A stretch of DNA of 64,000 bases. It comes from Natranaerofaba carboxydovora. GTDB taxonomy: Bacteria; Bacillota; Natranaerobiia; Natranaerobiales; Natranaerofabaceae. Below are positions 3,612 through 44,853 of this stretch, one piece after another. The position numbers and the translations under genes are program-made. The stretch covers positions 3,159,833 to 3,223,832 of the forward strand of contig NZ_CP054394.1 of NCBI RefSeq assembly GCF_022539405.1, read 5' to 3'. Positions within the stretch are counted from its first letter, which is position 1; every line of letters starts with the position of its first letter. A model generated the notes under the pieces. It was not told where the DNA came from. It searched no databases and saw nothing but the letters and a program-made list of their open reading frames with translations.

Positions 3612-3621
3612 ATAATAAAAA

Positions 3622-3754
3622 TTGATTCTGGTGCAAAAAGTCATATGAGCAAAGCTTTGTTTTTATTTATAATTACATCTTGACGAGTTTTAGATGTATC
3701 AATTAAAAACACTTTACTTATGTGATGTGAATAGACTTTTTGCACCAGAATCAA
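3622..3754. repeat. Palindromic repeat element, copy 1 (MITE-like)
   Basis: A 21-base perfect inverted repeat (3622-3642 and 3734-3754; inner part GGTGCAAAAAGTC) bounds about 133 bases of AT-rich sequence. The interior is also imperfectly palindromic, pairing around 3677-3700 through ACATCT and AGATGT with a short loop. If the ends are set at GATTCTGG and CCAGAATC (3624-3752), the element is flanked by AAAATT on both sides (3618-3623, 3753-3758), a possible 6-base target duplication, though chance is likely in such AT-rich DNA. The reverse complement matches the outer parts of the element at 44638-44853. There is no coding sequence. It sits between mrnC and thyX, two genes in the same direction. 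Confidence 0.8.
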
Positions 3755-3812
3755 AATTTAGTTTAGCATGAAATTATTTTGACAAAATAATATTTAAGGG
3801 AGAGATTATTTT

Positions 3813-44151: not shown

Positions 44152-44200
44152 ATAATTAAGAAGGTAAGACATATCAAAGCAACTAGAAAGGAGGAAGATG

Positions 44201-44593
44201 ATGGAGCAGGTAAAATATTACGGTACCGGAAGAAGAAAAACTTCTGTTGCCCGTGTTAGATTAGTTCCGGGTTCCGGGGATTTTGTTATTAATAAGAAGC
44301 CAATTAATGAATATTTCGGAATTGATACTTTAGAAACAATAGTAAAGCAACCCTTAAGAGAAACCGAATTAGAAGGCAAATTTGATGTTTTGGTAAACGT
44401 TAGAGGTGGTGGCTTTACTGGTCAGGCAGAAGCAATAAGACATGGTCTAGCAAGAGCATTACTTAAAGCAGACAATGAATTTCGTCCGGTGCTAAAAAAG
44501 AATGGATTTTTGACTAGAGATGAAAGGAAAAAAGAAAGGAAGAAATACGGCAGAAAGAAAGCTCGTAAATCTCCACAGTTTTCAAAGAGGTAA
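44201..44593 (+). CDS. rpsI: Ribosomal protein S9
   Basis: 130 residues. Its C-terminal tail (ending QFSKR) reaches the P-site t[19 protein letters not shown] start and [20 protein letters not shown] are typical. ATG at 44201 is six bases after GGAGG; the ATG at 44198 is only three away. Confidence 0.96.
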
Positions 44594-44604
44594 TCAGTGG
44601 TCTG

Positions 44605-44638
44605 CCTCCAAACAAAAGGGTTTGGAGGTTTTGTTTTG
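44605..44638 (+). terminator. Terminator after rpsI
   Basis: CCTCCAAAC / GGTTTGGAGG stem, five-base loop, followed by TTTTGTTTT. The T tract runs straight into copy 2 of the palindromic repeat. Confidence 0.9.
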
Positions 44639-44853
44639 TGCAAAAAGTCTATTCACATAAGTGATAGTGTTTTTAATTGATACATCTAAGACTCGGCAGC
44701 AGTCTAAATAAGGTTTCCTAATCAAAGAACTCATCGGCGAGTTCGATTAGCTAATGACTTGGCGTCATTAGACCTTATTTCGACTGCTTTCTCATCAAGA
44801 TGTATTACAATTAAAAACAAAACTTTGTTCATATGACTTTTTGCACTAGAATT
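44638..44853. repeat. Palindromic repeat element, copy 2, with a 99-base structured insert
   Basis: The outer parts match the reverse complement of copy 1 (3622-3754): left arm GTGCAAAAAGTCTATTCACA and on to ACATCTAAGACTCG, right arm TCAAGATGT to GACTTTTTGCACTAGAATT. Between them, at the point of copy 1's apical loop, lie 99 extra bases (44696-44794). These have a closing stem of 17 bases (44698-44714 with 44772-44788, one mismatch), a hairpin at 44718-44750 (CTAATC/GATTAG and GAACTC/GAGTTC) and a hairpin at 44751-44771 (CTAATGAC/GTCATTAG). Together they make a three-way junction. The left end lacks the ATTCTG of copy 1. It sits between the convergent rpsI and chromate-transporter genes. The 267-base gap is almost entirely this element. 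Confidence 0.85.

Follow-up and report, generated by a model that had tools for sequence, protein, structure and literature searches.

The conserved, branched core of a MITE family in Natranaerofaba carboxydovora, and its occurrence in other Bacillota

The element at positions 44638-44853 of the window, by which we mean the whole 64,000-nucleotide stretch of the Natranaerofaba carboxydovora genome that was analysed, is a copy of a MITE family, non-autonomous and ~225 bp long. At least seven Bacillota genomes, its own included, have the branched core of this family in conserved form, framed by at least three kinds of transposon end. The explanation that we consider probable is a MITE with a conserved branched core, mobilised in trans, of which the shorter relative in the same window (copy 1) is a deletion derivative, and whose palindrome has been kept at the DNA level by template switching together with selection.

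Structure and copies in the source genome

The window copy forms a long imperfect palindrome, with two arms around ~97 bases of core. The closing stem of the core (44698-44714 / 44772-44788) has 17 positions with one mismatch, and the three-way junction that it closes leaves almost no unpaired bases. The predicted minimum free energy was -81.7 kcal/mol (z = -11.6 relative to 200 dinucleotide-shuffled sequences), and no ORF of at least 100 aa was found within the element. Sequence and fold thus bear out the geometry described in an earlier, sequence-only reading of this DNA (arms, a 17-base stem with one mismatch, two hairpins, a tight junction), as well as its statement that no reading frame is present. 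The features are as follows.

44638..44853, plus strand: full-length MITE copy, its left terminal GATTCTG partly degenerate
44638..44649, plus strand: left terminal inverted repeat GTGCAAAAAGTC, matching the family end (from sequence)
44835..44846, plus strand: right terminal inverted repeat GACTTTTTGCAC, likewise matching the family end
44682..44687, plus strand: 5' side of the stem closing the conserved core, ACATCT
44798..44803, plus strand: 3' side of the stem closing the conserved core, AGATGT
44698..44714, plus strand: 5' strand of the closing stem of what the earlier reading called the insert (sequence and fold)
44772..44788, plus strand: 3' strand of the same closing stem
44718..44750, plus strand: inner hairpin 1, CTAATC...GATTAG with GAACTC...GAGTTC (fold and covariation)
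44751..44771, plus strand: inner hairpin 2, CTAATGAC...GTCATTAG (fold and covariation)
44602..44636, plus strand: hairpin with T-run, resembling an intrinsic terminator, directly before the element and behind a 131-aa ORF (44198-44593)
3624..3752, minus strand: copy 1, a deletion derivative of the same MITE, with a single CTCGTCA, whereas several full copies have one on each side of the core
3618..3623, plus strand: target-site duplication AAAATT, left of copy 1
3753..3758, plus strand: target-site duplication AAAATT, right of copy 1

The window copy has GGCG instead of CTG in the loops of its two hairpins (44733-44738 and 44759-44763), and several other copies (e1559340, e1837807, e2336227 and e2873905) show the hairpin 2 change.

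A search of the whole genome for arms and insert, as the earlier reading had proposed, yielded many copies. The 3.26 Mb genome holds ~41 near full-length copies (~225 bp) and ~150 loci, a few low-scoring ones of which may be chance matches, where the element is whole, shortened or reduced to one end; ~40 further copies share 79-91% identity with the window copy, far above chance. The family ends are GATTCTGGTGCAAAAAGTC, and the elements have terminal inverted repeats, are short, lack coding capacity and occur in many dispersed copies, as is characteristic of MITEs. With boundaries set at GATTCNNN and both-ended copies only, flanking direct repeats of 6-7 bp agreed at 5/6 bases or more in 27/69 copies (7.2 expected; maximum 14 in 300 shuffles), the 6-bp repeat being exact in 10/69 copies versus 1.1 expected and 7-bp repeats exact in five copies versus 0.3 expected. 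Mobility of the MITE by a DDE-type transposase is well supported. Target duplications also flank short forms without the core, and transposition may therefore not require it.

According to the sequence-only reading, the two copies match along their arms in opposite orientation, which was confirmed for both arms, copy 1 lacking the insert, and the ~99 extra bases of the longer copy are an insert in a repeat element, a reading which we reverse: all ~41 full-length copies carry the core, at the same place, and copy 1 is the derived form because the full-length form is the common one. In e182804 and other copies CTCGTCA lies on both sides of the core, and joining the two repeats removes 98 bp and produces the apex of copy 1, ACATCTAAAACTCGTCAAGATGT; the core of copy 1 was lost by deletion between the CTCGTCA direct repeats. 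The breakpoints of the other short forms are many and varied, and their mean microhomology is 1.59 versus 0.76 for random breaks; these forms, like copy 1, are internal deletion derivatives. One junction is common to three short forms, so some of these may have spread as such. It is extremely unlikely that the 99 bp are instead a separate element that entered a shorter hairpin and duplicated CTCGTCA as its target: the CTCGTCA flanks in several copies would fit such an event, but the constant place of the core in ~41/~41 full-length copies, the many and different breakpoints of the short forms, and the failure to see the core outside the element among the best 40 BLAST candidates scored in its own genome all speak against it.

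Transposon ends and the core in other Bacillota

The MITE ends recur in other Bacillota genomes. Two ~1.94 kb elements in genome G152 have MITE-type ends, GATTCTGGTGTAAAAAGTC, each pair around a transposase, and in G070 a similar end adjoins a similar transposase; these proteins match PF13751 above cut-off, and their best NCBIfam match is IS1182 (NF033551) at 136-161 bits, below the cut-off of 270. Neither a PF13751 protein nor a transposase with matching ends was found in the element's own genome. An IS of 1.29 kb, coding for a 349-aa IS1182/IS5-like transposase, is present there in two copies (G000:C1:1969942-1970988 and 1974565-1975611; 99% identical, ORF intact) and was rejected as the partner of the MITE since its ends differ. 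Widely spaced inverted-repeat pairs were considered as autonomous copies, and no transposase-like gene was recognised between those examined by eye. We infer the mobiliser, because the genome lacks a PF13751 protein and its 349-aa transposases have other ends: a transposase acting in trans, which is no longer found in this genome, would have moved the MITE.

A different MITE, at L238:2675-2905 and at similar loci in G263, shares the IS1182-like end (GATTCTGCTGCAAAAAGTA; G263 has 56 such ends). Its interior, too, is closed by a long stem and holds hairpins, which are unrelated in sequence; L236 resembles a shortened form of that MITE without the inner stem. Elsewhere (L241:3098-3281, G016) a cobalamin riboswitch adjoins a MITE-like element end.

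A covariance model of the core was searched in 399 Bacillota genomes (398 plus its own) and matched 6/398 other genomes with best E values of 1e-7 to 7e-21, namely G002, which we take to belong to the same order as the source genome, G150, G040, G081, G202 and G342. Most of the six hold multiple core copies, the numbers being lower bounds with at most ten candidates scored per genome, and the nested fold plan is the same in them. An element-wide BLAST search in 60 relatives had found none of the relatives that the covariance model later found. The ends around the core were of the types GATTC..TGCAAAAAG and GG..CACAAAAAGG, with 6-7 bp duplications, in the source genome (G000) and G040, with the same kind of end in G081-A; they were GGCT.. 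in G002, and CAGGAGTTTCCCC with 8-9 bp duplications in G081-B. The G081-B copies (L293-L299) are almost identical, which points to recent activity of the CAGGAGTTTCCCC subfamily. No curated model in Rfam 15 matched the element or the core, plasmid, phage and viral collections gave nothing relevant, one 20-mer searched against genome contigs gave unrelated single matches only, and a description of the element or core was not found in the literature searched, coverage of which was incomplete.

Pairing, position and possible role of the core

Among 36 copies aligned within the genome, 15/82 pairs had changed on both sides (7.9 in shuffles; 5-8 in slid controls), and within the core alone 8/35 (3.9 in shuffles). 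Eight double changes were private to single copies and 8/8 of them gave Watson-Crick pairs (0.78, that is ~0.8, expected; 0-2 in slid controls). Between genomes (45 distinct rows), 24/35 pairs had changed on both sides, with 264 double-change cells versus 79 in shuffled and 22-43 in slid alignments and a score of 0.414 versus 0.136, pair counts that are inflated by the fitting of this alignment (A4) to the structure; several pair positions showed three or four Watson-Crick types. Pair-preserving changes, which the earlier reading had named as support for a selected structure, were therefore seen when copies were compared and were far stronger in the comparison of genomes; the covariance-model check on relatives that it had proposed returned the six genomes with co-varying stems. 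Its view that simple decay does not explain the build also held, given the many copies, the pair-preserving changes and the presence of the core between different outer arms.

Part of this pairing bears signs of its origin. The window copy reads TTTCGACTGC in the closing stem's 3' strand, private to it among the 36 aligned, where the consensus is TTTCTCCTGC; these two neighbouring private changes make the strand the complement of the family's 5' strand and restore pairing. In copy e2039011 one arm duplicates a piece of the other, and the changes in both copies are template-switch-like. Template switching is a known cause of compensatory double changes arising in one event (PMC8794818). Template-switch repair between the arms may keep the palindromic shape at the DNA level, with added selection for a cruciform or a folded single strand that would promote the spread or persistence of the element. 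That the element is instead a purely selfish palindromic MITE with a functionless core, its pairing kept by template switching only, seems to us rather unlikely: the private double compensations and the local arm copying (window copy, e2039011), the pair-breaking changes carried by many copies and the documented mechanism (PMC8794818) fit it well, but template switching leaves unexplained both the strong conservation of CTAATC/GATTAG and the CCTG loops between genomes, across orders, and the recurrence of the same core between different ends.

The stems also bear on the question of RNA. Ordinary structured RNAs have more G-U pairs than A-C mismatches in their stems. Here no excess of G-U over A-C was found, either within the genome (26 vs 31 pair types) or across genomes (31 vs 43 cells). 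Because the two are equally common and the private double changes restore pairing, we favour a DNA-level fold, maintained by template switching, selection or both, rather than RNA selection of the classical kind, an RNA role being the main rival.

Genomic position was assessed with our own ORF predictions in place of annotation. Only 14/128 copies overlapped an ORF of at least 70 aa, versus 90% of 100-bp stretches chosen at random. For copies in tandem gene contexts, the upstream stop codon was a median of 9 bp away, 74/94 copies were nearer the stop than the next start, and 68/94 lay in gene orientation (P = 2e-5), a bias in which gene and replication direction are inseparable because most of the tested genes lie on the leading strand. 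In other genomes, read by eye, 8/10 copies within ~30 bp of a stop shared the gene orientation, and many copies did not lie near a stop. That copies behind stop codons mostly share the gene orientation hints at a role tied to one strand, which is more RNA-like. The core might accordingly be a functional structured RNA, transcribed behind genes (a 3'-UTR stabiliser, a processing site or a regulatory RNA) that the MITE ends only disperse. This we regard as doubtful: the strong cross-genome covariation, the conserved CTAATC/GATTAG stretches and CCTG loops, and the short distance and shared orientation behind stops argue for it, and the G-U count, the lack of an Rfam match, the confounding with replication direction and the many copies in other genomes that do not lie near a stop argue against it. 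The sequence-only reading had offered a structured RNA or a recombinase-recognised DNA fold; its modular build stood, the wobble test did not support the structured RNA, which may still apply given the orientation bias, and a folded DNA is a candidate.

A recombination site folded from single-stranded DNA, in the manner of integron attC or HUH/REP hairpins, would account for a structure conserved while its stem sequence changes, for the strand bias and for the position behind stop codons. It is nevertheless very improbable, since the 6-9 bp target duplications fit DDE insertion and not attC or HUH/REP systems, the ends are IS1182-like and no cassette arrays were present at the loci examined.

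What the core does we infer. Tentatively, the branched fold could be a portable functional passenger that small transposons with unrelated ends have handed on in several Bacillota lineages, and selection might act on it, in the form of single-stranded DNA or of RNA, through a benefit to the element or to the host gene that precedes the element.

Relation to known systems

MITEs are usually regarded as empty transposon ends. A covarying branched core in at least seven genomes with at least three kinds of end would be cargo without a gene. Like MITEs derived from IS1182-family insertion sequences, the element is short, non-coding and multi-copy, with target duplications and with ends resembling those of IS1182-type IS in other Bacillota; unlike them, it has no transposase with matching ends found in its own genome, and its branched, covarying core also occurs inside elements with other ends. 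BOX, ERIC, NEMIS/Correia and REP/BIME are modular palindromic repeats of intergenic DNA that come in several sizes and often lie close to the ends of genes. The element shares with them its intergenic place, palindromic build, closeness to gene ends and size variants, but is longer than most and has a three-way junction and a core that recurs across orders.

The related and hairpin-forming ends and some insertions near gene ends recall IS1272 of the IS1182 family (PMC5678879). IS1272 replaces inverted repeats and makes no target duplication (PMC5678879), in contrast to the 6-7 bp duplications of our element, for which stem-loop targets or loop duplication were rejected because its flanks show no inverted-repeat excess or excess complementarity. 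With hairpins maintained by template switching (PMC8794818) it has in common the one-event compensatory changes and an arm copied from the other arm; those hairpins were described in RNA genes, whereas this is a mobile DNA repeat. The element also offers a natural test case for telling RNA selection from template-switch symmetry, since a functional RNA is often considered proven once covariation is seen.
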